A DNA stretch of 38,658 nucleotides from assembly GCF_000403135.1 (NCBI RefSeq), contig NZ_AQPN01000096.1, positions 1-38,658 on the forward strand, in the 5' to 3' direction. Shown here piece after piece: positions 6,985-27,820 of the stretch. A program made the translations under genes and the position numbers. Each line of letters starts with the position of its first letter. Within the stretch, counting starts at the first letter, position 1. Origin of the DNA: Arcticibacter svalbardensis MN12-7 (GTDB taxonomy: Bacteria; Bacteroidota; Bacteroidia; Sphingobacteriales; Sphingobacteriaceae). Below the pieces are notes generated by a model that was given only the letters and a program-made list of their open reading frames with translations, ran no database searches and was not told the origin of the DNA.

Positions 6985-8859
6985 ATGAGATACTGTTTTT
7001 TATTTTTAATTGTCTTTTTAGAAGTTAACCTTTCAACTGCGAAGGAGAAATTTTCTATGCATAGTCCTAACGGAATTGTTAGTGCTAAGCTATATGCGGG
7101 AAAAGGTGGTCTTAAATATTGTGTAAAAGCAGAAAAAATAGAATTGATTGAACCATCTGCATTAGGGATAATTATAAATGACAAAATTTTTGGGAAAGCA
7201 GTCAATCATATCAAGCTCATAAGTAAAACAACCATAGATGAAAAATACTCGCTAAGAGGCAAGAAATCAGAAGCTTCGAATAAATGTACGGTTTATACCT
7301 TCGAAATTACAGAAGGAGCTTTAAAGTACGACATTGAGTTTAAATTATTTGATGACGGTTGTGCTTTCAGATATTTGGTAAAGACAGTTGCAAAGCCATC
7401 TCGAATCCGCGAAGAATTAACAACTTTTACATTAACTCCTAAAACTAAAGTGTGGTATTTTGAACGCAATAGTGTCTGGAAATTACGTTCGTATGCAGGT
7501 GTATGGCAACGTACAGCAATAGATAGTTTGCCAATTATATCAATTCAAGGTCCAATTCAAGGCAAGCCGTTAATTGTGGAGCTTGAGGATGGTGGTTACG
7601 TAATGCTCACAGAAGCGGCGCTGTATAACTACAGTGGGATGAGATTTAAAGCATTGGGCAAACGAGAGCTTAAAGTGAATTTCACAGAAGAGGAAAATGG
7701 ATTTACCATTAATGGAGATGTAATTACACCATGGCGTGTTGTCGGTTATGCAAAGGACCTGAATGCTTTAGTGAATACGGATATTATTACTAATCTAAAC
7801 CCATCGCCAGACCTTAAATTATATGCTGACACAGAATATATTAAGCCAGGAAGGTCAGTTTGGAGTTGGCTCACCCAACACACCCAGAAGAACTACATGT
7901 TGCCAGATTCCGAAAAGCGATTTATTGATGATGCCCATGAATTAGGATTTGAATATACCATGATTGATGAAGGGTGGGAAAGTAAATGGAACAATAAATG
8001 GGTTCAGCTTCAAGAACTTTGCAAATATGGCGCTGATAGAAATGTTGGTGTATGGATTTGGAAGCATTCAAGAGATCTTAGAAAACCATCTGTTAGAGAC
8101 GCTTTTCTGGATAGTGTAAAGGCTGAGGGCGCAGTTGGCGTTAAAACAGATTTCATGAATAGTGAAGCCAAAGAACTAATTGATTTTGAAATAGGGTTTT
8201 TAAAGGCTTGTGCGAAAAGAGAGTTAATGGTGAATTTTCATGGTTGCCATACTTCAACTGGCGAAAGCCGAACTTATCCAAATGAATTGACAAGAGAAGG
8301 TGTGCGTGGCATGGAGTTAAATATAATGAACGAACCTATTCCGGCTTCTCATAATGCAGCTTTGCCCTTTACTAGATTTGTAACAGGACACGGAGATTAT
8401 ACCCCCGGATTGTTCAGCAATAGAGCAAACACTACCTACGCTCATCAATTGGCTATGTTTTATCTGTTAGAATCCTCATTCCAATGTTTGGCAGATAATC
8501 CTGAATACCTATCTGAAGCTAAGCTAGAGATAGCTGTTAAAATGTTAAAGAATCTTCCGGTTACATGGGACGAAACAATTGTTTTGCCCGATAGTAAAAT
8601 TGGGGTTTTGGCGGCTATAGCAAGAAGAAAAGGTGATGTTTGGTATGTGGCAGTTATAAACGGAACTGATGAAAAATATACCTATAATTTAGCACTCTCC
8701 TTTTTGAAAAAGGGAATTAATTACTCGGCCACGTACGTTACGGATAATACAAATGAGTCTTTGCATGAGCGAACAGCCGTTTTAGACAAAAGCTCAAAAT
8801 CTGTGAATGAACTGTTACCCACAGGAGGACTTTTGATGACCATTAAGCCTGTTAATTAG
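6985..8859 (+). CDS. GH97 glycoside hydrolase, retaining alpha-galactosidase-like
   Basis: Hydrolyses alpha-linked terminal sugars in the periplasm. 624 residues, normal for GH97. A Sec signal peptide (MRYCFLFLIVFLEVNLSTA) is followed by an N-terminal beta-supersandwich to ~280, a TIM barrel (WSWLTQHTQKNY, YTMIDEGWE, VGVWIWKHS, GVKTDFMNS, MVNFHGCHTSTGE, RTYPNELTREGVRGMEL) and a C-terminal beta domain. Family knowledge: retaining GH97 enzymes have an Asp nucleophile on the 'GVK.DF' strand and a Glu acid/base in 'TREG(V)RG'; here these would be D389 and E438. Inverting SusB-type alpha-glucosidases lack that Asp, so alpha-galactosidase-like activity is more likely. It lies 10 bases after susD and 5 bases before the GH105 gene, so these are surely co-transcribed. 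Confidence 0.92.
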   Translation: MRYCFLFLIVFLEVNLSTAKEKFSMHSPNGIVSAKLYAGKGGLKYCVKAEKIELIEPSALGIIINDKIFGKAVNHIKLISKTTIDEKYSLRGKKSEASNKCTVYTFEITEGALKYDIEFKLFDDGCAFRYLVKTVAKPSRIREELTTFTLTPKTKVWYFERNSVWKLRSYAGVWQRTAIDSLPIISIQGPIQGKPLIVELEDGGYVMLTEAALYNYSGMRFKALGKRELKVNFTEEENGFTINGDVITPWRVVGYAKDLNALVNTDIITNLNPSPDLKLYADTEYIKPGRSVWSWLTQHTQKNYMLPDSEKRFIDDAHELGFEYTMIDEGWESKWNNKWVQLQELCKYGADRNVGVWIWKHSRDLRKPSVRDAFLDSVKAEGAVGVKTDFMNSEAKELIDFEIGFLKACAKRELMVNFHGCHTSTGESRTYPNELTREGVRGMELNIMNEPIPASHNAALPFTRFVTGHGDYTPGLFSNRANTTYAHQLAMFYLLESSFQCLADNPEYLSEAKLEIAVKMLKNLPVTWDETIVLPDSKIGVLAAIARRKGDVWYVAVINGTDEKYTYNLALSFLKKGINYSATYVTDNTNESLHERTAVLDKSSKSVNELLPTGGLLMTIKPVN

Positions 8860-8864
8860 TAGCT

Positions 8865-10094
8865 ATGAAATTAATTATAAATATGTTGTTTTTTATATTT
8901 AGAACATCTCCATATCATATAGTGAGGAAGGTATTTCAAAAATTTAGGTTAATAAGGAAATTGCCTTTGGCTTTTTTAGTACTAGGGTGTATAAGCTCTA
9001 GTATAGTGAAAGCAAATCATAAAGCAGACTCTGTATATCAGCTTGTGGAAAAAGTGGCCAATTGGCAGTTGAATAACTGGAAAGAAGGTGGAATAAAACG
9101 TGATAAATGGAACTGGACAAATGCTGTGTGCTATACTGGTTTTATGGAATTTAGCAAAATAGCCCGAAGTCCTAAATATATATCATCTATGTATGATATA
9201 GGAAATAGTATAAACTGGAGAACTGGTTTAAACAGGACGTTTGCAGATGATTATTGCGTAGGTCAGCTTTATTCACAATTGTATCTAAATTATCCTGATC
9301 CAAAAATTATTGAAAACTTTAAATTTCAGGTAGATAGTATAGCTAATCTACCCTTAAATGAGTCTTTAGAGTGGAAAAATAAAATACAGTTAAGGGAGTG
9401 GGCATGGTGTGATGCTTTGTTTATGGGGCCACCAGCATTTGCCTATTTGTCAACGGCTACAGGCAATAAGCAATATCTTGATTTAGCAGATAAGCTTTGG
9501 TGGAAAACTACAGCCTATCTTTATAATAGGGATGAACATCTTTTTTATCGTGATAGTCGCTTCTTTGGGCAACTTGAGAAAAATGGAGAAAAAGTATTTT
9601 GGGCTAGAGGCAACGGATGGGTATTGGCAGGTTTAGTGCGGATGTTGGAGAATATGCCAGAAAACTATCCGTCAAAATCTAAGTATATAAAGCTTTATAA
9701 AGAAATAGCTAAAAAGCTTGTTGCAATTCAGCATGAGGATGGTACATGGCATACATCTTTACTTGATCAGGAAGCCTATCCTTCAAAAGAGACCAGCGGT
9801 ACTGCATTGATATGTTACGGTATAACATGGGGAATCAACAATGGACTTATAAAAAAGAAAGATTACTACCCTACAGTAGAAAAAGCTTGGAAGGCATTGG
9901 CTAGTGCAGTACATTCTGATGGGAAATTGGGTTACGTTCAAGAGGTTAATGAAAAACCAGGTACTGTTGGTTACGAAAGCACAGAGGTATATGGGGTAGG
10001 AGCATTTTTACTAGCTGGAACCCAACTTTACCAATTGGAACAGACAGTTGAAGTTACTCCACGACAAAACAAAGAAAAGTTTTATAAAATTTAA
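8865..10094 (+). CDS. GH105 unsaturated uronyl hydrolase
   Basis: Removes 4,5-unsaturated uronic acids from the non-reducing ends left by polysaccharide lyases. 409 residues with an (alpha/alpha)6 barrel: NWTNAVCYTGFMEF, DDYCVGQLYSQLY, REWAWCDALFMGPPAFAYLS, DEHLFYRDSRF, FWARGNGWVLAGLVRML, HEDGTWHTSLLD, TSGTALICYGITWGI. The WARGNGW signature and the Asp in WCDALFMGPP (D183, equivalent to the catalytic Asp of YteR-like enzymes) support GH105 over GH88. The N-terminus is unusual: about 34 residues precede a hydrophobic stretch LPLAFLVLGCISSS, whose LVLGC looks like a lipobox; an internal GTG (residue 21) could be the real start. Upstream lyase action by PL8 in the same locus fits this role. Confidence 0.9.
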   Translation: MKLIINMLFFIFRTSPYHIVRKVFQKFRLIRKLPLAFLVLGCISSSIVKANHKADSVYQLVEKVANWQLNNWKEGGIKRDKWNWTNAVCYTGFMEFSKIARSPKYISSMYDIGNSINWRTGLNRTFADDYCVGQLYSQLYLNYPDPKIIENFKFQVDSIANLPLNESLEWKNKIQLREWAWCDALFMGPPAFAYLSTATGNKQYLDLADKLWWKTTAYLYNRDEHLFYRDSRFFGQLEKNGEKVFWARGNGWVLAGLVRMLENMPENYPSKSKYIKLYKEIAKKLVAIQHEDGTWHTSLLDQEAYPSKETSGTALICYGITWGINNGLIKKKDYYPTVEKAWKALASAVHSDGKLGYVQEVNEKPGTVGYESTEVYGVGAFLLAGTQLYQLEQTVEVTPRQNKEKFYKI

Positions 10095-10115
10095 TCAGTA
10101 ATAAAATCAATCACT

Positions 10116-11003
10116 ATGTATTTTAAATTGTACGTTACTAGTTTGCTGTCAGTTGCATTGTTGGCAAGTTGCTCTAAGGATAAGGTTTCCTCCCCAGATT
10201 TTAAGGTGAGTACAAAAACTACAACCGTCAAAGTAGGAGACGAAGTCTCATTTAAGTTTTCTGGTGATCCGGATAATATTACATTCTATTCTGGGATGGA
10301 AGGTTTTCGTTATGACAGTATTGGAAAAGCTGTGGCTCAATATGGCTCGCCTTCATTAGAGTTTTATTCAGCAACAAGAGTTGGTCCAGGTAGCATTAAA
10401 TTATTGATGAGTTCAGATTTAACAGATCTTTCATCACAAAATATTGGGTCTATTAACTGGATTGACATAAGCGATAGAGCAAATTTTGCTGTAATTGCAT
10501 TATTATCATCTTCTGGAAAGATTGATTTATCGGACTTAGTTGTGCCAAATAAGCCAGTTAGGTTTGCGTTTAAATTTGATGGTCCTTCTAGTTCCACCAC
10601 CTTGCCGCCAGTTTGGACTATCGGCCAATTCAATTTATACACCACTTTTTTAAGTGGGAATACAACTACGCTTCAAACATTAGGAAGCCTTCAATGGTCT
10701 GTTTTTGATGTGAAAAATCAAAATGCAAAATGGATAGTTACAACAACCTTGAGAATTGATGCAGGAGCAAGGAATGAACCCGACAATGAAGACTGGGTGG
10801 TAAGTAATAGCATTGACCTTATGGCTAAAATAGATGCTTATGAATTTGGTGTACCTCTCAAAAATATCACTACAAAACTTACTGAGTACAACTACAAATA
10901 CACTAAGCCTGGGATTTATAAAGCAACTTTCGTGGGAGCCAATACTACATTAAACGGCAGTAAAGAACTTGCTAAAACGCTTACAATTACGGTGACGCCT
11001 TAA
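10116..11003 (+). CDS. DUF5017-like PUL surface lipoprotein, probable glycan-binding protein
   Basis: 295 residues. Signal peptide with lipobox LLASC (Cys20). Residues ~28-140 match the pattern of DUF5017 proteins: DFKVSTKTTTVKVGDEVSFKFSG-D-x-DNITFYSGMEG. The rest is all-beta, with an Ig-like tail (KPGIYKATFVGANTT...KTLTITVTP). No catalytic motif is seen. In Bacteroidota PULs such lipoproteins follow the SusCD operon and are assumed to sit on the cell surface and bind glycan; that is inference here. It lies 21 bases after the GH105 gene and 13 bases before the next gene. Confidence 0.8.
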   Translation: MYFKLYVTSLLSVALLASCSKDKVSSPDFKVSTKTTTVKVGDEVSFKFSGDPDNITFYSGMEGFRYDSIGKAVAQYGSPSLEFYSATRVGPGSIKLLMSSDLTDLSSQNIGSINWIDISDRANFAVIALLSSSGKIDLSDLVVPNKPVRFAFKFDGPSSSTTLPPVWTIGQFNLYTTFLSGNTTTLQTLGSLQWSVFDVKNQNAKWIVTTTLRIDAGARNEPDNEDWVVSNSIDLMAKIDAYEFGVPLKNITTKLTEYNYKYTKPGIYKATFVGANTTLNGSKELAKTLTITVTP

Positions 11004-11016
11004 AACTTTAAAAAAT

Positions 11017-13626
11017 ATGGTGAGTTCTTTCGGAAAAGTGTTATTGTTAGGTATGGTCATGTTTTTGTTTTCTGGATGGAAATATAAAAATACAAAGCCT
11101 GAAGTTTTTACTCTTAAAAATTCTATCCTTAACCTTACTTGGTCTAAAGACAATAAAGGTTGGAAATTATCTAAACTAAAAATTAAGGTGGACGGTGAGT
11201 GGAAAACTTTGACCTCTTCTGATGCCGAGTATTTGGTGCTTTATAATGCTACAAAGCCCGATACAGCTCCCTTGCCTATTTATGATACAGCTGGAAGTAA
11301 AATTGATTTTCCTGAACCAGTGTATAAATTTGTAACCGGTGTTTGGAAAGAGATTACCAGTCCTGTTCAGATGAATGAAGCTGGAGAGCCAGACTACTTT
11401 TATCCTAAAAAAGCTAAAATGGATTCAGACGGAACCTTGGTTTTTTCTTCGGAAACTTCTAAATCTGTGATTCAATCTGCATGGTCAATGGATAAGAATT
11501 ATTCGTCTGATATTAATGTAGTAATATCGCTAACAGCTAAAGCTGATGGATATTATTCCATAGCAAGTCCAGCAATAACTACAGTATCGGAAGATCAACT
11601 TAGTTGGGGTGTTATACCTGGGCATTTTCAAGGAGCTACCATAGAAAAAGATTTTGTTAAAGCATTTGTTTATGGACAGGGAATACCTGATCGGCCTTTA
11701 TTGGTTAGAGAGCGTACTGCAAGTACACTTTCTCCCTGTGTTACAAATAAAGATGGGATTACAATAGCCGTAATTCCAGAACCTGGTACAGGGCGCAACC
11801 CTTGGACAGGAGATCAAAATACACATAGCGATTGGGAACTAGGCATGTCATTAATGAATAGAAAGCATAAAATTACGCCTACAATTTACCATCCGGTATT
11901 GGGAGAGAAAGGTTCGTATTTAAAAGCTGGAGAAACGAGAGTTTTCAAATTTCGGTATTCAATAACCACTGGTGATTGGTTTACAGCTACCAAGCATGCT
12001 TCTCAGGATATTTATAAATTTGCTGATTTCCTAAAATTAAAGAAAGCAGCTCAATCGCTTACAGATCGTGTATTAGCAATGCATAAGTATGTGGTAAACG
12101 ATACTACATCCATGTGGCGAACAGAGCAATTCAACTCAACTACTATTGGTGCTCAGGCTTACCTAGGCGGAGTTGTTGGCTCCGTTAAAGATGCCATGAA
12201 AAATTCTGATTATGGTGCAATGTGGATGCTTGCAACAGTAATGGATGATTCGATTTTAAAAACAACAAGGTTGCCTTACGCCAGAAATTTTAAGTTGGAA
12301 CAGCAACAAATATCAGATGGTTTTTTTAAAGGAGCGGTGATTGGGCAGTATTATTTATCCAAAAGCAAAAAGTTCACTGAAGAATACGGACCGTATGTTG
12401 AGCCAATTGGTTTGACTTATTATAATTTGATAGATATAGGGAACATATTACTCTTTGATCCAGAAGATTCTGTATTGAAATCTCGCTTTATCGCTGGTGC
12501 TGATAAACTTTTGGAATGGCAAAATAATGAAGGTAAATGGCAAGTAGCTTATGACAGAGAAACTACTAAACCACTTTTTACAGAATTGGAAGATTTAAGA
12601 CCTACATTTTATGGTTTAGTCGTAGCTTACAGGATTTTGAAGGATGAGAAATACCTTATTGGCGCTCGCAAAGGAGCAGATTGGTACATCAAGAATGCTA
12701 TTAACAAAGGACACTTTTTAGGTGTTTGTGGAGATACTCGTTTTGTTCCTGATTTTGCAACTGTACAGAGCGCACAGGCTTTACTTGATTTGTATGATGT
12801 AACAAAAGATAAAACTTATCAGGATGCAGCAATTAAGGCTGCGCAGTTTTATACCACATCTATTTATACGCATCCTATCCCAAACCGCGAAATAAAAACT
12901 GTAAACGGCGTGAAACGTGAAGATTGGGAAATAAGTCAGGTTGGGCTTAGTTTCGAACACGGTGGAGCTGTTGGTAGTGCCAATACTTTAGGCCCTATAT
13001 TGTTAGCCAGCCATGCAGGATTATTTGTTCGAATTTATCAGTTGACTAAAGATTCCATATACTTAAATATGGCCAGAGCAGCAGTGCTAGGAAGAGATGC
13101 TTTTGTTGACGATAAAACAAAAGTTGCATCTTATTATTGGAAAGCGATGAATGCAGGGCCTGGAGAATATCCTCACCACGCTTGGTGGCAGATTGGCTGG
13201 ATTACGGATTATCTCTTGTCTGAAGTAGAAATGCATTCCAACGGAAAAATTACTTTTCCTCGTGGATTTATGACGCCTAAGGTAGGTCCTCACGAAGCTT
13301 ATGGATTTGCACCTGGCAGTGTCTATGGCAGACAGGCAAAGTTAGTTTTAAAAGAAGGAATGCTTAAAAGTAAAAGTCCTTATTTAGATTATATTGGGGC
13401 TGTAAGTACTGACTCTAAGGCGATTTACTTTATTTTACTTAATGACAGTTCTGAGCCTTTGAAAACAACAATCGATTTGGACGTTGAGAAAATAATATCC
13501 ACAAAAAAAGTAAATAATTTGATGTGGCTAAGCCCTGAAGGTAAGGGCATAGAATCAATTGGAAATAGCCTAAATATAGACGTATCATTACCCGCTTATG
13601 GTTTAAAAGTTCTGAGGGTCGAATAG
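11017..13626 (+). CDS. Exported 869-residue protein with predicted alpha/alpha-toroid; unclassified candidate glycosidase or lyase
   Basis: I cannot assign this to a known family. An N-terminal hydrophobic stretch (GKVLLLGMVMFLFSG) suggests export. Residues ~30-335 look like a large beta-sandwich (SWGVIPGHFQGATIEKDF, PCVTNKDGITIAVIPEPGTGRNPW, FKFRYSITTGDWF). Residues ~350-760 are helical with repeating hairpins typical of six-hairpin glycosidases or lyases (DGFFKGAVIGQYYLSKSK, RPTFYGLVVAYRILKDEKYL, SAQALLDLYDVTKDKTYQDAA, EHGGAVGSANTLGPILLASH, PHHAWWQIGWITDYLLSEVEM). A C-terminal beta domain closes the chain. The Glu, His and Trp residues of the EHGGAVGSA and PHHAWWQ motifs could line an active site. 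Its position in the susCD operon and domain layout argue for a carbohydrate-active enzyme. Confidence 0.75.
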   Translation: MVSSFGKVLLLGMVMFLFSGWKYKNTKPEVFTLKNSILNLTWSKDNKGWKLSKLKIKVDGEWKTLTSSDAEYLVLYNATKPDTAPLPIYDTAGSKIDFPEPVYKFVTGVWKEITSPVQMNEAGEPDYFYPKKAKMDSDGTLVFSSETSKSVIQSAWSMDKNYSSDINVVISLTAKADGYYSIASPAITTVSEDQLSWGVIPGHFQGATIEKDFVKAFVYGQGIPDRPLLVRERTASTLSPCVTNKDGITIAVIPEPGTGRNPWTGDQNTHSDWELGMSLMNRKHKITPTIYHPVLGEKGSYLKAGETRVFKFRYSITTGDWFTATKHASQDIYKFADFLKLKKAAQSLTDRVLAMHKYVVNDTTSMWRTEQFNSTTIGAQAYLGGVVGSVKDAMKNSDYGAMWMLATVMDDSILKTTRLPYARNFKLEQQQISDGFFKGAVIGQYYLSKSKKFTEEYGPYVEPIGLTYYNLIDIGNILLFDPEDSVLKSRFIAGADKLLEWQNNEGKWQVAYDRETTKPLFTELEDLRPTFYGLVVAYRILKDEKYLIGARKGADWYIKNAINKGHFLGVCGDTRFVPDFATVQSAQALLDLYDVTKDKTYQDAAIKAAQFYTTSIYTHPIPNREIKTVNGVKREDWEISQVGLSFEHGGAVGSANTLGPILLASHAGLFVRIYQLTKDSIYLNMARAAVLGRDAFVDDKTKVASYYWKAMNAGPGEYPHHAWWQIGWITDYLLSEVEMHSNGKITFPRGFMTPKVGPHEAYGFAPGSVYGRQAKLVLKEGMLKSKSPYLDYIGAVSTDSKAIYFILLNDSSEPLKTTIDLDVEKIISTKKVNNLMWLSPEGKGIESIGNSLNIDVSLPAYGLKVLRVE

Positions 13627-13758: not shown

Positions 13759-15855
13759 ATGAATTACAGAAGAATACATATCAATGTAATAGCCATTATG
13801 GTTATTGGGCTTTTATGTCATTTTAATAATAGCTGGTCGCAAACTTCGAATCGATTTTTCAAAGAAAGCGATCCTATGCGCTTTGGCGTTTACTACTATC
13901 CTGAGCAATGGCCAGAAGAAGATTGGGAAAAGGATATAAGTAAAATTGCAAGTTTGGGCTTTGATTTTACCCATTTTGGTGAATTTGCATGGTCCAAAAT
14001 GGAACCAGAAGAAGGAAAATATGATTATTCATGGCTGGATAAAGCTATAGCTCTTGCTGCAAGGAATAATTTAAAAATTATCTTATGCACTCCTACAGCT
14101 ACACCACCGGTGTGGTTAACAAATAAATATCCTGAAATTTTAATGGTAAATGCCAAAGGAACAACCATACAACATGGTGCTCGGCAGCAGGGTTCATGGT
14201 CTAGTGTAAAATACAGGGAATATATCCAAAAAATTGTTGAACAGCTAGCTAAAAGGTATGCTAATAACCCGACTGTTTTGGGGTGGCAAATAGACAATGA
14301 GCCATCTCATTATAGCTTGGGATACGATTATAACGCTAGTGCTCAGAGCAACTACAAGACATGGCTCAAAAAAAAGTATGGATCTATTGATACATTAAAT
14401 GCTGTTTGGGGTAATGCGTTTTGGAGTCATACCTATAATAATTTTGATCAAATTAGAATTCCAAATCAAAATGAAATTATTCAAAAACCAATTACAAATG
14501 CCCTATTAGATTTTAAGCGATTTACAGCCGATGAGCTTGCGGACTTCATCCATTTTCAGCAGAAGATTTTACGACAGTACATTTCTCCTAATCAATGGAT
14601 TACAACAAATATTACGGAAGAGCGCGCCTCTGTAGATCCACAGAGAATGGGCTTCCTAGATGTTTTGAGTTATACTAAATACATGGTTGCAGGAACATCG
14701 ATGGGAATAGGTAAGCTTGGTTTTAGGATAGGTTCTCCAACTAGTATTGGTTATGGAAATGATTTTATTCGTCCCATTACGGGTAATGTAGGTGTAATGG
14801 AATTACAACCTGGACAGGTAAATTGGGGAAAGTATAACCCACAACCCTTGCCTGGCGCAATAAGACTTTGGATGTATGATATTTGGTCTGGTGGGAATAA
14901 GTTTTTATGTACTTATAGATTTAGACAGCCATTATCAGGTATCGAACAATATCATGGAGGTATAATTAATACAGATGGTAATTCGCTGAGCAGAGGAGGT
15001 AGAGAATTCGTAGATGCTATGAATGAAATTAAAGCTATAGAGAAATTACACCCAGTTAATAAGGGTACACCTGCAAAGGTCGGTTTACTTTATAGTGTGG
15101 ATAGCCGATGGGAAACAGATAATCAACCACAAACAGAAGAATGGAGTTACATAAGCCATCATTTGAAATACTATAAAGTTTTAAATGAACTGGGTGTGTC
15201 AGTTGATGTTATTGATGAGAATGTGGAATTTTCAAAATATTCAACCTTAGTTGTTACTGCTTTTCAACTAACTGATAAATCCTTGATTGAAAGATGGAAA
15301 CAATATGCTGAACAGGGTGGGCAGTTAGTAATAACTTGCCGTACCGCTCAAAAAGACCGTGAAGCACATCTATGGAAAGGAAAGCTCTCTAGCCCAATAT
15401 ACGATCTTATTGGAGCCACAGATATGTATTTTGACCATTTGCCGCCTACATATGAAGGTTTGATATCTTATAAAGAGAAAAACTTCACATGGAATAATTG
15501 GGCAGATATACTAACTCCAAACACGCTTACTGAAGTTTGGGCTTCCTATGCTGACCAGTTTTACAAAGGTAAAGCAGCAGTGCTGCATAAAAAGACAGGA
15601 GTAGGTTCAGTAACCTATATCGGGCCTGATACAGATTCAGGAGATTTGGAAAAGGCAGTTTTAAAAGAAGTATTTCAGCAAGCGAAAATTCCATTTATAG
15701 AATTACCAGAAGGGGTTATTGTTCGTGATTATAGAGGACTAAAAATAGGGTTGAATTATTCTTCTTCCGAATTAACTCTTCCTTTGAAAACAAAATCTTC
15801 AATTATTTCAGGTCAACAGAATATAAAACCTGCAGGTGTTTTAATATGGAAATAG
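13759..15855 (+). CDS. GH42 beta-galactosidase, exported
   Basis: Removes beta-galactosyl residues. 698 residues, normal for GH42. Signal peptide MNYRRIHINVIAIMVIGLLC...SWSQ points to export. The TIM barrel begins RFGVYYYPEQWPEEDWEKD; FGEFAWSKMEPEEGKYDYSWLD, TATPPVWLTNKYPEIL and GWQIDNEPS are all GH42 hallmarks. The acid/base would be E181 in DNEP and the nucleophile E348 in VMELQPGQVNW. A trimerisation/beta-galactosidase-like domain follows from ~430 (PAKVGLLYS...). The 132-bp gap before it shows no clear promoter, so it may be read from the susC unit or have its own start. Together with the GH97 it implies galactose in the target glycan. Confidence 0.93.
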   Translation: MNYRRIHINVIAIMVIGLLCHFNNSWSQTSNRFFKESDPMRFGVYYYPEQWPEEDWEKDISKIASLGFDFTHFGEFAWSKMEPEEGKYDYSWLDKAIALAARNNLKIILCTPTATPPVWLTNKYPEILMVNAKGTTIQHGARQQGSWSSVKYREYIQKIVEQLAKRYANNPTVLGWQIDNEPSHYSLGYDYNASAQSNYKTWLKKKYGSIDTLNAVWGNAFWSHTYNNFDQIRIPNQNEIIQKPITNALLDFKRFTADELADFIHFQQKILRQYISPNQWITTNITEERASVDPQRMGFLDVLSYTKYMVAGTSMGIGKLGFRIGSPTSIGYGNDFIRPITGNVGVMELQPGQVNWGKYNPQPLPGAIRLWMYDIWSGGNKFLCTYRFRQPLSGIEQYHGGIINTDGNSLSRGGREFVDAMNEIKAIEKLHPVNKGTPAKVGLLYSVDSRWETDNQPQTEEWSYISHHLKYYKVLNELGVSVDVIDENVEFSKYSTLVVTAFQLTDKSLIERWKQYAEQGGQLVITCRTAQKDREAHLWKGKLSSPIYDLIGATDMYFDHLPPTYEGLISYKEKNFTWNNWADILTPNTLTEVWASYADQFYKGKAAVLHKKTGVGSVTYIGPDTDSGDLEKAVLKEVFQQAKIPFIELPEGVIVRDYRGLKIGLNYSSSELTLPLKTKSSIISGQQNIKPAGVLIWK

Positions 15856-17966: not shown

Positions 17967-20900
17967 ATGAAAAAAACGCTATTTGTTTTATTTTTCGGAT
18001 TGCTCTCTAGCTTTTTTGCAAAAGCTGATGACTTTGATACCCTTTATGAAAGATTGTTTGCAGAATACCTCACAACATGGGTAACTAACCAATCTACCAT
18101 ACAAGGATATATAAATACACAACAGTCTGATGGGAGTTGGTCCACTATAAATTATGATTCGCAAATTTTTATAGGAGGATGGGAACCTTTAGTTTACTGG
18201 GATAGATTGTTACAGATGGCATTGGCGTTTAAAAAGCCAGGCAATTCATCTTTTGGAGATAGTATATTAAAAGTAGAATAAAACTCGGTCTTCTGTATTT
18301 GTAATAATCGTACAAACCAACCTTTGTCAAATAACTGGTTTGATAATGACATCGGAATGCAGGAGAGGTTACTCAAAATTTTAATCCTTATTAAAAATGA
18401 TTTTTTAACTGAGCCCGATTGGAAAGATGTTATAGTGGACGGATGCGATAAATACCTTGTTTTACCCAGCGATTATAATACTACAAACAAAAGTAAACTA
18501 ACCAATGCTGTTTGGATAGCTCGTAATTTAGTGCATAACGGCGGTATAAAAAAAGATCAAGCTAAACTACAAGAGGGTATTAATAACATGGCTATACAGC
18601 TTGCTATTAAGTCAATAAATACAGAAGGGGTACAACGAGATAATTCATTTTTGACTCATGGCTTGCAATTGTACAATTCTGGTTACGGCAATGAACTGAT
18701 AAAGGAAGTTAGCTATTATATGAACCTTATCCGAGGTCTTACTTTGGTGAGTTTTACTCTCGCACAAATCGCTACTTTAAGTGATTTAATTTTAAAAGGC
18801 GATCAGTGGATGGTGCAAGGTAAAGCTTATGACTTTGGAGTTATGGGCCGTAATATATCAAGGGAAAATAATGGAAGTACGAGTTATTTAACTGGTCTTT
18901 TAGATACCATGAAACTAATAAATCCTGCTAAAAGCGCCCAGTATCAAGCTATGTTAAATAATGTAATTGATCCAACAGGGACAACGCCTTGCGTGGTTGG
19001 TAATATATATATATTATAGAGCAGATTTTATGGCTCATAGAACTCCGGGGCTTTATATTGGTGTAAAAATGTGTTCAAGTCGAACTCGGGGAACAGAATC
19101 ATTAAACAATGAGAATTTACTTCCAAACTGGCTTCCTTTTGGCGCAACTGCAATTATACGTACCGGAGACGAGTATTATAATATTTTTGGAGTTTGGGAC
19201 TGGACAAAGATTCCAGGAGTTACCAATCCGGCTGTTAAAGTGATTTGGCCTACGGATACAACCATCAATAACACTCAAGCAACGACCTTTTGTAGGTGGT
19301 GTGTCTGACGGGAATTTTGGAGTTACTACTATGGACTTTAATAAAGCAACTCAAGTAAACGGATTACCAGTTGTTATAGCTGCTCGTAAAGCTAATTTTT
19401 TATTTAATAAGGAAATGATTTGTCTGGGTGCAGGTATAACATCGTCCTACTCATTGGCGCCAACAACCACAACGCTCAATCAATCTTATCTAAAAGGCTC
19501 TGTATTGGTAAATGGTGCAACAGTTCCTCCGAGGGATAACACTTATAATGATGTTCGATGGATATATCATGAAGGTACAGGGTATGTTTTTAGAAGTAAT
19601 ACCACTGCTAAGATGAAAACAAATTTCCAAAGCGGAAATTGGTATACTATTAAGCAAGCTCAAACTAATGAAACTGTAACTGCAGATGTTTTTAAGTTGT
19701 GGTTAGATCATGGAAATGCTCCGTCAAATGCAACCTATAAATATGCGGTTCTTCCAAATTTCACTTCTAGCGAAACCAGTATCTATGCTACTAACATGCC
19801 GGTGGAAACAGTATCAAACACTTCTTCTTTACAAGCTGTAAGTCATAAAACACTGAAACAAACAGGGGCGATTTTATATCTTGCGGGTACAGTTGATATT
19901 AATGAAACTTTAAAAGTCGCTGTTGATAAGCCATGTATTCTTTTGATAAATTGGGGAGCCAATCCAATTAAGGTTACGGCTTCTGATCCCAACCAAACTG
20001 AAACTACTTTAAATGTAATTATAAGTTATAGTGGGCTAAAAAGTGAAATTTTAACATTTCCACTTCCTTATTCAAATGCGATAGGTACTAGCATGACAAA
20101 AACTGCTGCAACAACCCGCTTAGTCGACGAGCGTTTTGATAACACAACCAATATGACAGCAGTAGCTGGGGGAGTGTGGTCTTTAGTTGGTGGAGAACTC
20201 GCACTAAGCAATCCAACATCAAATGCTTTTTCAACTCCTGCTAATATTAATGTGAATAATACTCCAAATACGGGTGATTTTATAAGGACTTTAAGAGCTA
20301 AAGTTATGGGCACAAGTTCAAACCTGGATGTCCTTTGTTTGGTTTGGAATCAGCAGAACCCCGCTAACAGTTATTATTATGTTAACATTAACGAAAGTAA
20401 TACTGCTGGAAAATCCGGAATATTTAAGGTTGTAAATGGTTTTAAATCGGCTCAGTTGGCTAATGTTACAGTTACGTTGATACCGGATGTGTGGAACAAT
20501 CTGGAATTGCAAAAGATAGGTGATGTTAATAAAATTTTCTTGAATGGTGAGCTCGTATCACAATTAACAGATAATACGTTAACAAGTGGTTTTGTAGGCT
20601 TGGGATTCTATGATAATACCTGTAGTTTTAATAATTTATCAGTATTAAAATACAACAATAATTTAATGGACACTACCAACTTGCCCTATGATCCCACGGT
20701 AAACATATTGAAATTTCAAAGCGTTGATCGCGATTCGGATGGAGTAATAATTTATCCCAACCCTTCATCTGGCAAATTCAATGTAAAGTTAAATGATTCG
20801 TTAACTGGTGCTAATATTAAAGTTTTTTTTTGATATTACGGGACGTATCCTGTATTCAATAAACAAAGCCGGTTCAGAAAACACAATTACACTTGATAAT

Positions 20901-21232: not shown

Positions 21233-23389
21233 ATGAAAAGAATCTTATTAATGTTACTAGTTGGATTAATGTCTAACAGTTTAGCAAAAGCTGATGACTT
21301 TGACGTCCTTTATCAAAGGTTATTTGAAGAGTACATAACAAATACTCCAATGAATAGTTTAACAGCAATTCAATCTTATATGGATACCCAGCAGGCTGAC
21401 GGTAGCTGGTCTACTATTGATTATGATTCACACACATTTGTAGGAGGATGGGAGCCTTTAGTTCACTGGGATAACTTGTTGAATATGGCAATGGCTTTTA
21501 AGAAACCTGGTCAGATACTTTATGGTAGTACCGTTTTAAAAAATCAAATAAAGCGAGGTCTTCTTTTTTGGTATAATCGTAAAAAGCAACCTTTTTCGGA
21601 TAACTGGTTTGATAACGATATTGCTATACAGTCAAGATTATCGAAAATTTTAATTTTAGTTAAAAATGATTTTTCAACTGCACCAGATTGGACGGATGTA
21701 TTAGAATTTGGATGTAAAAAGTATCTTATCTTACCAGATAATTATGCAACCACCAATAAGGGGAAACTCACTAATGCGGTATGGTTGGCTCGTAATTTAG
21801 TACATAATGGTATCATAAGAAAAGACATTGTACCATTACAGCAAGGTATTGATAATATGTCCATGCAACTGGCTGTAAAATCTGTTAATACAGAAGGTGT
21901 ACAACGAGATAATTCATACCTAGTTCATGGTTTACAGCTTTATAATTCTGGTTACGGTAATGAGCTAATTAAAGAAATTAGTTATTATATGTATTTAACC
22001 CGCGGGGTTAGTTTGGTTGGCTTTTCAGTAGCACAGGTTGCCACACTGAGTAATTTGTTGTTAAAAGGAGATCAGTGGATGATACAAGGTGGCTCTTATG
22101 ATTTTAGCGTAACAGGTCGTAATATTTCGAGAAAGAATAACGGATCTACTGGTTATTTAAAAATGGTATTACCTAGAATGCAACTCGTAGATACTGCTGG
22201 GAGTATTCAATATCAAAAATTACTTGATCACATAAGTGATGAAACAGGAGCCACACCAAGCGTTCTTGGAAATAAATATTTTTTTAGAGCTGATTTCATG
22301 ACACATAGAGCACCAAATTTATATATCGGTGTAAAAATGACTTCTAAGAGAACCCGTGGAACAGAAGCAATGAACAGCGAAAATCTGTTAGCAAATTGGC
22401 TTCCCTTCGGTGCCACAACAATTATGCGCACAGGTAAAGAATACTTCAATATTTTTGGTGCATGGGATTGGACAAAAATCCCTGGAGTTACAAATCCATC
22501 AGTTTTGGTGCCATTTCCTGAAGGAAAAACCACTAATAATACCCAAAAAACCACTTTTGTAGGGGGTGTGTCTGATGGAATCTATGGGGTGACAGGGATG
22601 GATCTGAGTGTAGTAATAGATCCTACAGGAATTATAGCAGATATTACTGCTCAAAAGGCCAACTTTTTATTTAATAATGAAATGATTTGCCTTGGTGCAG
22701 GTATTAGTTCGTCCTATTCCAAAGCTCCAACCACCACTACCCTTAATCAATCCTACCTAAAAGGCGATGTTTTGGTAAACGAAAACGCTGTTCCGAAACA
22801 AGAAAGTACTTATAACGATGTTAAATCAATATATCATGATAATACTGGTTATGTATTCAGAGCTAATACCACTGTTAAAATGAAAACTAATTCCCAAAGC
22901 GGCAATTGGTATGACATTAATCGAGGGCAGGCTAATTCAAAAGAAAAGGTTGATATTTTTAAACTTTGGTTAGATCATGGAAAGGAGCCAACCGACTCTT
23001 CGTATGAATATGTTGTTTTACCTAATTTCACTTCGAAGGAAACAACTGATTATGCAGATAATATGCCGATAGAAACATTATCTAACACCAGCTCATTACA
23101 AGCTGTTACACATAAAAAACTGCATCAAACAGGAGCTGTTTTTTATGAAGCTGGAACAATTAAAATTGATCCAACACTATCTTTGACGGTTGATAAACCA
23201 TGCATTTTATTGATAAATTGTAATGTTAATCCAATTAAAGTTACTGCTTCTGATCCCAATCAAAGTGAGACTACTTTAAATGTTTATATCACATACAATG
23301 GACAGCAAAAGGAAACATTGACATATCCACTGCCATATTCCAATGCAAAGGGAGCTAGTATGGCTAGAACTGCAACTATCAAGAGATAA
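21233..23389 (+). CDS. Polysaccharide lyase family 8 (chondroitin AC/hyaluronate/xanthan lyase-like)
   Basis: Cleaves glycosidic bonds beside uronic acids by beta-elimination, leaving 4,5-unsaturated ends. 718 residues: signal peptide (MKRILLMLLVGLMSNSLAKA), an alpha/alpha-toroid to ~340, then beta-sandwich domains (ANFLFNNEMICLGAGISSS; CILLINCNVNPIKVTASDPNQ at the C-terminal end). By comparison with family catalytic residues, N188 (ARNLVHNG), H232 and Y241 (YLVHGLQLYNSGYG, the H-x8-Y spacing of PL8) and R296/R300 (GRNISR) are in place. It lacks the LamG-like and T9SS domains of the dead neighbour, so it is probably periplasmic. It has its own promoter. The exact substrate among PL8 polymers cannot be decided; the absence of sulfatases argues against sulfated glycosaminoglycans. 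Confidence 0.9.
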   Translation: MKRILLMLLVGLMSNSLAKADDFDVLYQRLFEEYITNTPMNSLTAIQSYMDTQQADGSWSTIDYDSHTFVGGWEPLVHWDNLLNMAMAFKKPGQILYGSTVLKNQIKRGLLFWYNRKKQPFSDNWFDNDIAIQSRLSKILILVKNDFSTAPDWTDVLEFGCKKYLILPDNYATTNKGKLTNAVWLARNLVHNGIIRKDIVPLQQGIDNMSMQLAVKSVNTEGVQRDNSYLVHGLQLYNSGYGNELIKEISYYMYLTRGVSLVGFSVAQVATLSNLLLKGDQWMIQGGSYDFSVTGRNISRKNNGSTGYLKMVLPRMQLVDTAGSIQYQKLLDHISDETGATPSVLGNKYFFRADFMTHRAPNLYIGVKMTSKRTRGTEAMNSENLLANWLPFGATTIMRTGKEYFNIFGAWDWTKIPGVTNPSVLVPFPEGKTTNNTQKTTFVGGVSDGIYGVTGMDLSVVIDPTGIIADITAQKANFLFNNEMICLGAGISSSYSKAPTTTTLNQSYLKGDVLVNENAVPKQESTYNDVKSIYHDNTGYVFRANTTVKMKTNSQSGNWYDINRGQANSKEKVDIFKLWLDHGKEPTDSSYEYVVLPNFTSKETTDYADNMPIETLSNTSSLQAVTHKKLHQTGAVFYEAGTIKIDPTLSLTVDKPCILLINCNVNPIKVTASDPNQSETTLNVYITYNGQQKETLTYPLPYSNAKGASMARTATIKR

Positions 23390-23745: not shown

Positions 23746-23805
23746 TTGGCGGAGTTAATTTAAATTCTTATTATTGCATTATTAACCAAACCAAACCAAA
23801 CCAAT
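23746..23805 (+). promoter_or_regulatory. Promoter and CCAAA repeat upstream of the cytoplasmic oxidoreductase gene
   Basis: TTG (23746-23748), a 20-base spacer and TATTATTG (23769-23776; one mismatch to TAnnTTTG) resemble a Bacteroidota promoter. Nine bases later four CCAAA-type units run from 23786 to 23805, the last being CCAAT, exactly as before susC. The gene start is 33 bases further on. Confidence 0.6.
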
Positions 23806-23838
23806 ATTGCGTTTTACGAATAAGATTGAAAGAGATTG

Positions 23839-26118
23839 ATGACACAAGAAACATTTACACCAAGAAGGGAATTAAGGACAGAAAATTTTGATATTGAACT
23901 AACAGTTATCGGCGGAGGCATGTCTGGCGTATGCACTGCAATAACAGCAGCTCGTAAAGGAGTGAAAGTAGTTTTATTACAAGATAGGCCAGTGCTAGGT
24001 GGAAACGCTTCCAGCGAAGTTAGGTTGTGGATTTTGGGAGCGACATCTCACATGGGTAATAATAACCGCTGGAGCAGAGAAGGCGGGGTAATTAATGAAA
24101 TACTAGTAGAAAACACTTACAATAATAAAGAGGGAAATCCTTTAATATTTGATACGATACTATTGGACAAAGTGATATCAGAACCTAATATTACTTTATT
24201 GTTGAATACAGCAGTTTATGAAGTGGAGAAGTCAGATCCTGATACTATATCCTCAGTAAAAGCATTCTGTAGCCAAAACTCTACCATGTATACAGTTAAA
24301 TCATCACTTTTCTGTGATGCATCGGGCGATGGTATAGTCGCTTTTCTTTCGGGAGCAGCATTTAGAATGGGCGCTGAGAGTAAAGAGGAATTTGGCGAGA
24401 AATTTGCGCCAACGGATGAATATGGTGAACTATTGGGACATAGCTTATACTTTTACACAAAGGATACTGGAAAACCAGTGAAATTCGCGGCTCCTAGCTT
24501 TGCTATAAATGTATCTAAAGAGATTCCAAGATTTAAAAGTTTCAACTCTAAGGAGCATGGATGCAAGCTATGGTGGTTAGAGTATGGAGGTCGAATGGAT
24601 ACCGTTCATGATACCGAGAAGATCAAGTGGGAACTATGGAAGGTAGTTTATGGTGCTTGGGATTATATCAAGAACTCTGGAGATTACCCTGAAGCTGAAA
24701 CAATGACTTTAGAATGGGTAGGCACTATTCCCGGTAAAAGAGAAAGCCGAAGATTTGAAGGAGATTATATGCTTCGCCAACAAGATATTGTTGAGCAGAA
24801 AACTTTTGAAGATGCAGTGGCTTTCGGTGGTTGGTCTATTGATCTTCATCCGGCGGATGGAGTTTTTAGTGAGAAACCCGGTTGCAACCAATGGCATGGA
24901 AAAGGAATCTACCAAATTCCATATCGCTGTTTGTACAGTAAAAACATAAAAAACCTATTTTTAGGAGGAAGAATCATTAGCGCAACCCACGTGGCATTTG
25001 CGTCTACTAGAGTAATGGCTACTGCGGCACATATTGGCCAAGCGATTGGTATGGCGGCTTATGTTGCAAAAGAAAATAAAATTCAGCTAAGAGGACTTTT
25101 AGCAAAAGAATTTATTCAAAGTTTACAAACTGAATTATTGAAAAGTGGTCAGCATATTCCAGATTTTGATTTACAGGAGAGTTCTGATTTAGTGCAAACT
25201 GCAAAACTATCAGTGTCAAGTGAATATCAATTAGCGGAACTTACGTCAGCTTTTTACAAACCACTCGATCTTTCTGTAGCGCAGATGCTTCCTTTAAACG
25301 AAGGGGGAAAAGTACCACAAATTGTTTTCCATGTAGAATCCGAAATAGATACCACACTTGAGGTAGAACTGCGCATCAGCGGAAAGTTAGGCAACTACAC
25401 GCCAGATCTAAGTTTGGAAACGCAAACTCTCGTTATAAAACCTGGACGAAACTGTCTAAGTATTTCATTTTCCGTCGAAAGTAAAGACACCGCTTACGGA
25501 TTTATTATATTTCACAAAAATCCAGAGGTCAAGTTACATTTTTCTAATCAGCGTGTTACAGGAATACTTTCAGTCTATAATTCGATAAATAAAGCAGTTT
25601 CGAATTTTGGCAAGCAAACCCCGCCAGAAGATATAGGTATGGAATCTTTTGAGTTTTGGTGTCCTCAACGTCGACCAGAAGGGCAAAATATTGCTATGAA
25701 ACTGAATCCGCCGATAAATAAATTCGGTAAAGATAATCTTAAGGTAGGAGTGTTTCGTCCTACACTTGCGCCAAATGCCTGGGTTGCGGCAGCAGATGAC
25801 AAAATTCCTCAAGTGAAAATCAGTTGGGACGAACCAAAAGAAATTAGTAAAATTGATCTATTCTTTGATACCGATTACGATCACCCAATGGAAAGCGTAT
25901 TGATGGGGCATCCAGAAGATGTAATGCCATTTTGCGTGAGAAATTATGAGATTTTAGATGATAACGGAAATACTGTTTATTCCAAAAAAGGGAACTATCA
26001 AAGCATAAATAACATCAACTTAGAACAAAAGATAACAACAAAGGCACTTACTATTACTATCGAACATCCTTCTAGCAATGTCCCAGCCGCATTGTTTGCT
26101 GTTCGTTGCTATAGTTAA
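23839..26118 (+). CDS. Cytoplasmic FAD-dependent oxidoreductase (FAD_oxidored family) with C-terminal beta domains
   Basis: 759 residues, no signal peptide, so cytoplasmic. The frame is open to a TTG at 23836 but the ATG three bases later is preferred. A Rossmann FAD site (IELTVIGGGMSGVCTAITAARKG, VVLLQDRPVLGGNASSEVR) is followed by family motifs: LFCDASGDGIVAFLSGA, EWVGTIPGKRESRRFEGDYML, DAVAFGGWSIDLHPADG, YQIPYRCLYSKNIKNLFLGGRIIS, ASTRVMATAAHIGQAIGMAA. Residues from ~470 form added beta-sandwich-like regions (VFHVESEIDTTLEVELRISG; later KISWDEPKEISKIDLFFD, discoidin-like). It differs strongly from the exported oxidoreductase at 15922. It is followed after 13 bases by a symporter gene, so it probably acts on the imported product; the substrate is unknown. 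Confidence 0.88.
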   Translation: MTQETFTPRRELRTENFDIELTVIGGGMSGVCTAITAARKGVKVVLLQDRPVLGGNASSEVRLWILGATSHMGNNNRWSREGGVINEILVENTYNNKEGNPLIFDTILLDKVISEPNITLLLNTAVYEVEKSDPDTISSVKAFCSQNSTMYTVKSSLFCDASGDGIVAFLSGAAFRMGAESKEEFGEKFAPTDEYGELLGHSLYFYTKDTGKPVKFAAPSFAINVSKEIPRFKSFNSKEHGCKLWWLEYGGRMDTVHDTEKIKWELWKVVYGAWDYIKNSGDYPEAETMTLEWVGTIPGKRESRRFEGDYMLRQQDIVEQKTFEDAVAFGGWSIDLHPADGVFSEKPGCNQWHGKGIYQIPYRCLYSKNIKNLFLGGRIISATHVAFASTRVMATAAHIGQAIGMAAYVAKENKIQLRGLLAKEFIQSLQTELLKSGQHIPDFDLQESSDLVQTAKLSVSSEYQLAELTSAFYKPLDLSVAQMLPLNEGGKVPQIVFHVESEIDTTLEVELRISGKLGNYTPDLSLETQTLVIKPGRNCLSISFSVESKDTAYGFIIFHKNPEVKLHFSNQRVTGILSVYNSINKAVSNFGKQTPPEDIGMESFEFWCPQRRPEGQNIAMKLNPPINKFGKDNLKVGVFRPTLAPNAWVAAADDKIPQVKISWDEPKEISKIDLFFDTDYDHPMESVLMGHPEDVMPFCVRNYEILDDNGNTVYSKKGNYQSINNINLEQKITTKALTITIEHPSSNVPAALFAVRCYS

Positions 26119-26131
26119 ATAAAGAACTACA

Positions 26132-27820
26132 ATGAGTATACTCGATTACGTAATAATGCTTGTTTTTACAATTGTAATAATTGTAGCAGGACTGTCTTTC
26201 GGTAAAAGCGGAAGTAACATGAAATCTTATTTTGCTGCTGGCGGTGCAGTGCCTTGGCAAATCAGTTCTCTTTCCCTGTTTATGAGTTTTTTTTCGGCTG
26301 GTACTTTTGTAGTTTGGGGTTCATTGGCCTATCAATATGGTTTTGTCGCTGTTGCTATCCAGCTAACTATGTGTGTTGCCGGATTAGTAGTCGGCTTGTA
26401 CATCGCTCCAGCATGGCAAAAATCACATTCATTAACAGCGGCGGAATTTGTTTCCAAAAGGTTAGGAATAAAGATCCAAAAATTTTATAGCTATTTGATA
26501 TTGTTGATATCCCTGGCTTACACTGGTGCTTTTCTTTATCCCGTAGCTAAAATTATTAACGTCTCCACGGGTTTCTCAATAGAGGCATGTGTGATCGTCC
26601 TGGGTGTTCTCATTATTATTTATACCGTGGTAGGTGGACTGTGGGCGGTAATGATTACGGACGTTTTACAGTTTGTTGTGCTGACCGCTGCAGTAATCAT
26701 TGTTGTGCCATTAGCTTTCGACAGAGTGGGTGGAGTTGACCAGTTTTTGGCAAGTGTTCCTGAAAGCTTCTTTTCTCCGGTAAATAAAGAGTATTCGTGG
26801 CTATTTTTATTGGCTTTTGGGATATATAACGGAATATTTATTGGTGGAAATTGGGCTTATGTTCAACGTTATACAAGTGTTGATACGCCAAAGGCGGCTA
26901 GTAAGGTAGGCTATCTTTTTGCGGGACTCTACCTAATTAGTCCTTTCATTTGGATGTTGCCACCGATGATTTATCGAGTTTTGAACCCCAATTTGTCGGG
27001 CTTGCAAAACGAAGGTGCTTATCTGATGATGTGCAAGGAAGTGTTACCCAAGGGCATGATCGGCTTAATGTTGGGCGGGATGCTGTTCGCCACAGGTAGT
27101 TCTGTAAACACAACCTTGAATTTGGCAGCTGCAGTTTTTACCAACGATTTGTACAAGTCTGTAAAGCCCGAAACAAAACCAAAAAAACTGATGTTCATTG
27201 CTAAACTGGCCACCACGATTTTTGGTGTACTTACTATTTTAGTGGCTTTGCTAGTTCCTTTGGCAGGGGGCATTGTTGAGATAGTATTGAGTGTTGGGGC
27301 AGTAACTGGATGTTCACTTTACGGACCTCCAATATGGGCACTCTTCTCAAAGCGCCACACGGGTAAATCCATTCTTTGGTGTACGGTGCTGGGTCTCTCC
27401 ATAAATGTATATTTTAAGTTCTTTTATCCGTTGAACACGGGTGAATCACTTAGTAGAACAGAAGAAATGTTAGCTGGGGCAGTTATTCCATTGATACTCT
27501 TGATAAGTTATGAGCTTTGGGCAAGGTCTAAAAATAAGATAGCTGTTGACTATACTCGTTATAAACGACAACTGGATGCAACTGTCGGATCTGTTGAGAG
27601 TGAAGGAGAAGAAGAACCAAGTGAGAGTAGCGAATCACAAAATGCGTTTGGACTAAAAGTGTTGGCAAGAACTATGGGGATAATCTCGGTGATTTTCATT
27701 GTTTTAGCTTTTGTATCGGGTAATGCTTTAGACGTTACTTTGCTGATTGGGGTACTCATTGGAGTAGCTGCATTGATAATTAATAGAAGGTCTAAAAATG
27801 AGATAAAAATATCGGGTTAG
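26132..27820 (+). CDS. Sodium:solute symporter (SSS family)
   Basis: Inner-membrane transporter of 562 residues, predicted 13-14 transmembrane helices. SSS hallmarks are an N-terminal helix followed by SYFAAGGAVPWQISSLSLFMSFFSAGTFV, then SHSLTAAEFVSKRLG, TVVGGLWAVMITDVLQFVVL (the family's G-G-x-x-A-V-x-x-T-D-x-x-Q motif), NWAYVQRYTSVDTPKAAS and LMLGGMLFATGSSVNTTLNLAAAVFTNDLYK. An acidic loop (EGEEEPSESSES, ~490-500) lies before the last two helices. Translationally close to the oxidoreductase gene, it probably imports the sugar, uronate or unsaturated derivative released by the PUL enzymes. No terminator was identified immediately after it. Confidence 0.9.
   Translation: MSILDYVIMLVFTIVIIVAGLSFGKSGSNMKSYFAAGGAVPWQISSLSLFMSFFSAGTFVVWGSLAYQYGFVAVAIQLTMCVAGLVVGLYIAPAWQKSHSLTAAEFVSKRLGIKIQKFYSYLILLISLAYTGAFLYPVAKIINVSTGFSIEACVIVLGVLIIIYTVVGGLWAVMITDVLQFVVLTAAVIIVVPLAFDRVGGVDQFLASVPESFFSPVNKEYSWLFLLAFGIYNGIFIGGNWAYVQRYTSVDTPKAASKVGYLFAGLYLISPFIWMLPPMIYRVLNPNLSGLQNEGAYLMMCKEVLPKGMIGLMLGGMLFATGSSVNTTLNLAAAVFTNDLYKSVKPETKPKKLMFIAKLATTIFGVLTILVALLVPLAGGIVEIVLSVGAVTGCSLYGPPIWALFSKRHTGKSILWCTVLGLSINVYFKFFYPLNTGESLSRTEEMLAGAVIPLILLISYELWARSKNKIAVDYTRYKRQLDATVGSVESEGEEEPSESSESQNAFGLKVLARTMGIISVIFIVLAFVSGNALDVTLLIGVLIGVAALIINRRSKNEIKISG

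Follow-up and report, generated by a model that had tools for sequence, protein, structure and literature searches.

Our analysis of a 38,658-nucleotide stretch of DNA from Arcticibacter svalbardensis MN12-7 (contig NZ_AQPN01000096.1; the whole stretch is called the window here) found a polysaccharide utilization locus (PUL) in which known parts are newly combined with each other and with one protein family that has no name. With moderate confidence, we take it to serve the use of an acidic, galactose-containing heteropolysaccharide other than a standard glycosaminoglycan (GAG), and to be either a mosaic made from two types of loci or a form intermediate between the two; we label these loci type A (marked by the protein UNK869) and type B (PL8 with GH105 or GH88). 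UNK869 is our shorthand for an 869-amino acid protein of the locus, and FOX1 and FOX2 for its two PF12831 FAD_oxidored proteins. A non-GAG substrate is favoured, if unproven, and a uronate-bearing bacterial exopolysaccharide is our first guess. The features of the locus are the following.

662..1681, minus strand: GntR-type regulator with a periplasmic-binding-like C-terminus (Pfam GntR, 36 bits; Peripla_BP_3 slightly under cut-off)
1789..4992, plus strand: SusC (TIGR04056, 916 bits)
4998..6974, plus strand: SusD, 658 amino acids (PF07980, PF14322)
6276..6686, plus strand: insertion in SusD, residues 427-563 (alignment to type-A and type-B SusDs)
6985..8859, plus strand: GH97, probably of the retaining type (PF10566, 210 bits; nucleophile Asp)
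8865..10094, plus strand: GH105-like unsaturated uronyl hydrolase (PF07470 (GH88/GH105), 278 bits; 4ce7, E 2.4e-66)
10116..11003, plus strand: DUF5017 lipoprotein (PF16409, 143 bits; lipobox by eye)
11017..13626, plus strand: UNK869, with an N-terminal beta-sandwich, an (alpha/alpha)6 toroid and a C-terminal beta domain (no Pfam match above cut-off)
13759..15855, plus strand: GH42 beta-galactosidase family (PF02449, 400 bits; PF08532, 160 bits)
15922..17853, plus strand: FOX1, FAD_oxidored with an N-terminal signal peptide by eye (PF12831, 279 bits)
17967..20833, plus strand: broken PL8 copy with a PF06439 domain (three frames, internal stops, Pfam pieces scanned apart)
21233..23389, plus strand: intact PL8, 718 amino acids, N-x-x-W type (three PL8 domains PF08124, PF02278 and PF02884; motifs; tree)
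23836..26118, plus strand: FOX2, FAD oxidoreductase with a CBM32-like C-terminus (PF12831, 324 bits; model and fold match)
26132..27820, plus strand: SSS symporter (PF00474, 135 bits; TIGR00813, 187 bits, cut-off 184)

The genome that holds the locus comprises 4.69 Mb in 149 contigs. Neighbouring SusC and SusD genes, carbohydrate-active enzymes and a regulator, the marks by which a PUL is recognized, are all present; every main gene from 1789 to 27820 is on the plus strand, and the regulator at 662-1681 diverges from SusC, ahead of which it stands. An earlier note on this DNA, confined to 6985-27820, had correctly named the GH97, GH105, GH42, PL8 and SSS genes and the two FAD oxidoreductases, all of which match their families far above chance; it left out the regulator, SusC and SusD, which lie upstream of its start, as well as the DUF5017 lipoprotein, UNK869 and the broken PL8 copy.

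The evidence for a mixed history comes from comparison with other loci. In a sample of 301 genomes of the family, the window's own included, PL8 and GH105 relatives (E<=1e-20 and E<=1e-75, respectively, from the place lists) lie within 15 kb of each other in six of the 300 other genomes (G024, G084, G161, G190, G191 and G292), and the contexts of five of these, all but G084, were examined. Four of them (G024, G292, G190 and G191) have SusC (49-50% identity), SusD (38-49% across all 670 columns) and DUF5017 (30-35%) proteins related to those of the window, with GH105 fused to GH28 in G024 and a GH78 in the loci of G292 and G190. The fifth, G161, has a different SusC/SusD, yet PL8, GH105, GH28 and GH78; a 958-residue PL8, an SSS-like protein and a GH130 (L148:2088-9358) adjoin a second PL8/GH105/GH28/GH78 locus in this genome. 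A fifth type-B locus is found in G117 (SusC 53%, SusD 43% over 673 columns, DUF5017 29%), with two PL8 proteins, a PF07470 protein, two PS_pyruv_trans proteins, a SASA esterase and a GH3. In this xanthan-like PUL of G117 (L134:6694-7965 and 14431-15714; L142; L143), the PS_pyruv_trans (PF04230) proteins are pyruvyl-transferase-like and odd in a degradative setting, and a 1401-residue protein has no Pfam match and a weak sorting tail.

The window SusD carries an insertion of 137 residues that at least 90% of 30 type-A SusDs lack. In G191 (L160), 137 of 138 window positions are filled, 74 of them identical (72 on realignment); three other type-B rows fill 77-78 positions, with 26-31 identical, and G117 fills 81, with 31 identical. 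In the SusC tree, the window, 24 type-A and four type-B rows form a single clade (support 100), within which the 24 type-A rows form a clade of their own (99) with the window outside. In the SusD tree the window lies between the types, grouping with type B at 81/85, and type B splits as a group from type A plus the window at 98/97. The first SusC and SusD trees excluded 29 near-duplicate loci and counted L148 as type B although it has SusC and SusD proteins of a different sort, on long branches; a later SusD tree excluded 11 SusD rows. As judged from these comparisons, the window joins both types: it has the SusD insertion in common with type B, and UNK869, GH97, FOX2 and SSS with type A. The combination of a transporter feature common to PL8 loci with these type-A genes suggests a mosaic or an intermediate, and the trees fit either.

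Type-A loci were collected by scanning genome contigs for UNK869, which gave 155 places, of which the best 80 were retained as loci. Among these 80, a FOX2 relative is found in 60 (946-1308 bits) and an SSS relative in 70 (505-904 bits), or in 60 and 68, respectively, of the 73 loci of at least 22 kb; relatives of DUF5017 (25), the regulator (14) and GH97 (strong in seven, weak in one more) are less frequent, and further members are GH2, GH3, GDSL, DUF4886 and SASA proteins and a 1144-residue relative of UNK869. FOX1 also scores in 60 of the 80 loci; L020 (228 bits) is the single one to exceed 100 bits, and the other scores are cross-hits to FOX2-like proteins. Relatives of PL8, GH105 and GH42 occur in none of the 80, an absence that is only local, since flanks extend at most 10 kb and seven loci are shorter than 22 kb. 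Of six genomes searched over their full length, the five well-assembled ones all have FOX2 on the contig of UNK869, at a distance of 8-17 kb and in some outside the flanks; the sixth, without FOX2, is 87% complete in 360 contigs. Many UNK869 loci of Dyadobacter, Spirosoma and relatives (L032-L068; e.g., L058:8955-9983) include an ApbE flavin transferase, and in the same loci a 329-residue protein of no Pfam family stands next to a further, second FOX2-like protein (37-42% identity).

UNK869 itself is present in 27 of the 301 family genomes (own included) and in at least 80 genomes of several Bacteroidota families, together with two metagenome-assembled genomes labelled Verrucomicrobia; it was not found in plasmid records. 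Its 42 aligned relatives are 49-61% identical to the window protein, Arg351, His720 and His721 are invariant residues, and its AlphaFold2 model is confident (pLDDT 90, pTM 0.90). A Foldseek search with this model puts the PL27 enzyme 5no8 on top (E 1.5e-10), a match that is weak overall (TM 0.28/0.33; Z 20.7 over 486 residues, root-mean-square deviation (rmsd) 7.9), and the toroid alone finds cellobiose 2-epimerases first (Z 24.0, rmsd 3.6, 330 aligned), followed by GH76 and an unsaturated glucuronyl hydrolase. The fold that the modelled protein shares with solved enzymes does not demonstrate a function. With the 42-row profile, PDB sequences gave seven matches at E<=0.1 (best E 0.0095), 5no8 not among them. 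Two assignments were rejected: a C5-epimerase, for which PF06662 scores 21.4 bits against a cut-off of 23.3; and GH127, of which a weak, below-cut-off match is seen only in a distant 941-residue relative. PL27, also considered, is doubtful, given the sequence search and the weak fold match just described.

In the alignment, the intact PL8 retains the catalytic Asn, His, Tyr, Arg and Glu of this family. It falls under the NCBIfam cut-off for chondroitinase AC (NF043001; 363 against 1000 bits), and the fourth position of its N-x-x-W motif is one in which the family divides: of 45 aligned rows, from which short PL8 pieces were excluded, 28 have D, including chondroitinase AC, and 15 have W, including both xanthan lyases and the window. 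In a tree of 35 of these rows (10 left out), 19 N-x-x-D rows with chondroitinase AC (1hm2) form one clade (95), and the window PL8 lies outside it, paired with a PL8 of G117 (100). The second G117 PL8 (L143) joins the two xanthan lyases (2e24, 6f2p) at 100, in a clade that does not include the window protein. The closest relative is thus the G117 enzyme (56% identity), sited in a xanthan-like locus, and it is the sole close one among the 300 other genomes of the family (the runner-up has 35% identity) and the sole one at E<=1e-115 in 379 other genomes of the order; none was found at E<=1e-110 in 394 others drawn from the phylum, in draws that overlap and of which the last does not list G117. 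This neighbourhood speaks for the reading of the earlier note, which proposed a bacterial exopolysaccharide or plant gum as the target. The W of the motif fits non-GAG lyases, yet may be an older state. The broken copy matches the intact PL8 over three successive frames (63, 72 and 67% identity), and contains one TAG and one TAA in its first part. A PF06439 domain scores 30.2 bits in it against a cut-off of 26.8, and a sorting tail is visible by eye. This domain was formerly called DUF1080. A review names a DUF1080 protein of Thermogutta as an endo-xanthanase (PMC10881899).

The PF07470 protein looks like a GH105 rather than a GH88 enzyme by its sequence matches. It has nine PDB matches at E<=1e-3, headed by 4ce7, an 'unsaturated 3S-rhamnoglycuronyl hydrolase', then 5noa (deposited under the name 'Family 88 glycosyl hydrolase') and 4q88, and including a 'putative GH105' chain and YteR; the solved GH88 unsaturated glucuronyl hydrolases, such as 1vd5 and 3wiw, are not among the nine. 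Its active-site region W-x-W-C-D-A-L-F-M is retained, Asp included. The GH97 Asp aligns with that of 3a24, where the deposited 5e1q chain has Gly; since this nucleophile is kept, a retaining enzyme is likely, one that falls under the NCBIfam alpha-galactosidase equivalog cut-off (NF053844; 241 against 800 bits). Alpha- or beta-galactose is the sugar expected of GH97 and GH42 from what is known of these families, so that both enzymes would point to the galactose that had been proposed for the target.

The two flavoenzymes probably act in different compartments. FOX1 has a hydrophobic N-terminal stretch by eye and is probably exported, and FOX2, in which no signal peptide is visible by eye, is probably cytosolic, so the oxidative step after import put forward in the earlier note agrees with FOX2 and not with FOX1. 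The C-terminal part of the FOX2 model (pLDDT 80) matches chitosan/CBM32-type modules (4zxe, Z 16.7, rmsd 1.9, 124 aligned; 2xqx, a CBM32, Z 16.3, rmsd 2.8, 136 aligned). A substrate could not be read from the fold of its FAD part, where numerous flavoprotein rows are tied near Z 16. Close relatives of FOX1 (57-67%) occur in three of the 300 other family genomes: in G185 and G284 they are paired with another FAD enzyme next to SusC/SusD, and in G289 the relative lies with GH28, two GH92 and SASA. The window's own genome has two more full-length PF12831 genes, paired, next to a fucosidase and a sulfatase. The recurrence of such genes in glycan loci suggests that these flavoenzymes are tied to glycan use.

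Gene content, the catalytic residues kept in PL8, GH105 and GH97, the two locus types and the common SusD insertion are observed; from them we infer the following order of steps, with the enzyme locations, the substrate and the roles of FOX1, FOX2 and UNK869. Outside the cell or in the periplasm, PL8 would cut the polymer at a uronic acid by beta-elimination, and the fragments would be taken up by SusC/SusD and the DUF5017 lipoprotein, which from its gene position is likely a surface glycan-binding protein. GH105 would then remove the unsaturated uronate, GH97 and GH42 would remove alpha- and beta-linked galactose (or related sugars), and UNK869 would cleave a further linkage. FOX1 could carry out an oxidation in the periplasm, while SSS would import a small product that cytosolic FOX2 then oxidises. 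As to history, types A (UNK869, FOX2, SSS, some with GH97) and B (PL8 with GH105 or GH88) share one kind of SusC/SusD/DUF5017.

Other substrates have to be weighed. It is unlikely that the locus degrades a plant gum, arabinogalactan or rhamnogalacturonan-like side chains, with PL8 or UNK869 freeing a cap from glucuronic acid, GH105 taking the unsaturated uronate, and GH42 and GH97 the galactose. The PDB matches 4ce7 and 5noa of the GH105-like protein, the latter reportedly from arabinogalactan work, would fit it, as would the rhamnose-glucuronate lyase 5no8 at the top of the UNK869 list, GH78 and GH28 in type-B loci, and acetylesterase-like GDSL, DUF4886 and SASA proteins in type A. The 5no8 match is, however, weak as a whole and no sequence link was found, and Pfam scans of the window detected no GH43, GH78 or arabinosidase. 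A GAG locus, in which PL8 would yield unsaturated disaccharides from hyaluronan or unsulfated chondroitin and the GH105-like protein would strip the uronate, is distinctly improbable. Chondroitinase AC is the best match of the intact PL8 in both PDB and NCBIfam, and gut loci that serve unsulfated chondroitin and have no matching sulfatase are described in PMC12269599. Against a GAG stand the position of the PL8 outside the chondroitinase-AC clade and far under the NCBIfam cut-off, the GH105-like rather than GH88-like helper, the lack of any place for GH97 or GH42 in such a polymer, and the Pfam result that neither a sulfatase nor a hexosaminidase is present among 17 of 17 open reading frames of at least 100 amino acids beginning before 27820. 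The earlier note's exclusion of a standard GAG locus agrees with this; its word 'unsulfated' depends on the absence of a sulfatase. A decaying locus, non-functional for its former substrate, is very unlikely: the broken PL8 copy and a split integrase next door point to it, but the 12 other genes from the regulator to SSS have intact frames, with catalytic residues kept where checked, and a protein divergence of 28-37% between the two PL8 copies indicates that the intact one was maintained.

Several observations count against an acidic, galactose-containing, non-GAG polymer and a mosaic history. In PDB, the intact PL8 matches chondroitinase AC (293 bits) well above xanthan lyase (119) and mannuronate lyase (102), and one of the two PL8 copies is broken. 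The 14 of 35 tree rows with W are not one clade (two changes), so that W may mean merely 'outside the N-x-x-D clade', a clade whose 19 rows include one characterised enzyme. Enzymes for the backbone and mannose of xanthan (GH5/GH9, GH38/GH92, GH94) are absent from the 17 scanned open reading frames. The support of 81/85 for the window with type B in the SusD tree is modest, and its nearest rows by path are type A. G191, with the fullest SusD insertion, has an N-x-x-D PL8 within the chondroitinase-AC clade (L149) and, within the same gene run, a Glucosamine_iso/PIG-L-domain protein; this lends some weight to a GAG and means that SusD kinship does not fix the substrate. Apart from this, the earlier note's view of an unusual enzyme set is weakened in that the pairing of PL8 with GH105 is recurrent, six other family genomes having both within 15 kb.

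Among known systems, the xanthan clusters of Bacillus GL1, Paenibacillus, R.UCG13 and B. intestinalis, as described in PMC10881899 and PMC12827396, resemble the window in a PL8 that opens a uronate side chain and a PF07470 unsaturated uronyl hydrolase. The window PL8 also shares N-x-x-W with xanthan lyases, and its sole close relative sits with a PL8 of their clade; unlike them, it lies outside that clade, and in place of a GH5/GH9 xanthanase, GH38/GH92 and GH94 the locus has the galactose-type GH97 and GH42. Ulvan PULs (PMC8511951) follow the same logic of lyase and GH105, and the window GH105 is near the ulvan enzyme 4ce7, but the window has no sulfatase, no GH78 and no Pfam-level match to PL24/25/28/40. 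With the chondroitin/hyaluronan PULs of Bacteroidota it shares the PL8 family, and differs in PL8 clade, in having no sulfatase or hexosaminidase, and in its GH105-type helper. The PL27 rhamnose-glucuronate lyase 5no8, with the PL27 layout described in PMC8377490, has the N-terminal beta-sandwich and (alpha/alpha)6 barrel of UNK869, which differs by its extra C-terminal beta domain and by a toroid closer to cellobiose epimerases. FAD glycoside and pyranose oxidases (PMC10646112 and PMC11673046) also act on sugars, and a pyranose oxidase is at rank 40 in the FOX2 Foldseek list; FOX2 is nonetheless PF12831, not GMC by Pfam, and has a CBM32-like domain.

Around these genes, an imperfect repeat with ACCAAACCAAACCAA occurs at window positions 21107-21132 and 23779-23804, roughly 30-125 bases ahead of the intact PL8 and of FOX2. 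The two repeats occupy the two widest gaps of the locus and are possible leader elements. A scan for sigma-70 promoters and terminators did no better than with shuffled sequences (52 vs 53.6 and 8 vs 8.9). Directly after the PUL, at 28010-28790, a tyrosine recombinase lies in two frames (SAM-like and catalytic pieces). The sole Rfam match in the window is downstream of the locus, a thiamine pyrophosphate (TPP) riboswitch (RF00059, 29848-29935, 74.7 bits) ahead of the next operon.

The UNK869-FOX2-SSS module is the part of the locus that deserves attention. Literature searches found no publication on the UNK869-flavoenzyme-symporter gene set. The earlier note did not see these three genes, the most unusual part, as a unit. 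Tentatively, they may form an undescribed oxidative glycan module of Bacteroidota, in which UNK869, as a new (alpha/alpha)6 enzyme family, would free a sugar acid or small oligosaccharide, SSS would import it, and the CBM32-bearing FOX2 would oxidise it to open its catabolism (or cleave a glycosidic bond by oxidation and elimination); in the window this module would be joined to a PL8/GH105 uronate-lyase pathway. The window is useful as a natural link: its PL8/GH105 part indicates the kind of bond in the polymer and could thus lead to the substrate on which the UNK869 part acts. Should the module indeed oxidise sugars, glycan use in soil bacteria would gain an oxidative route.

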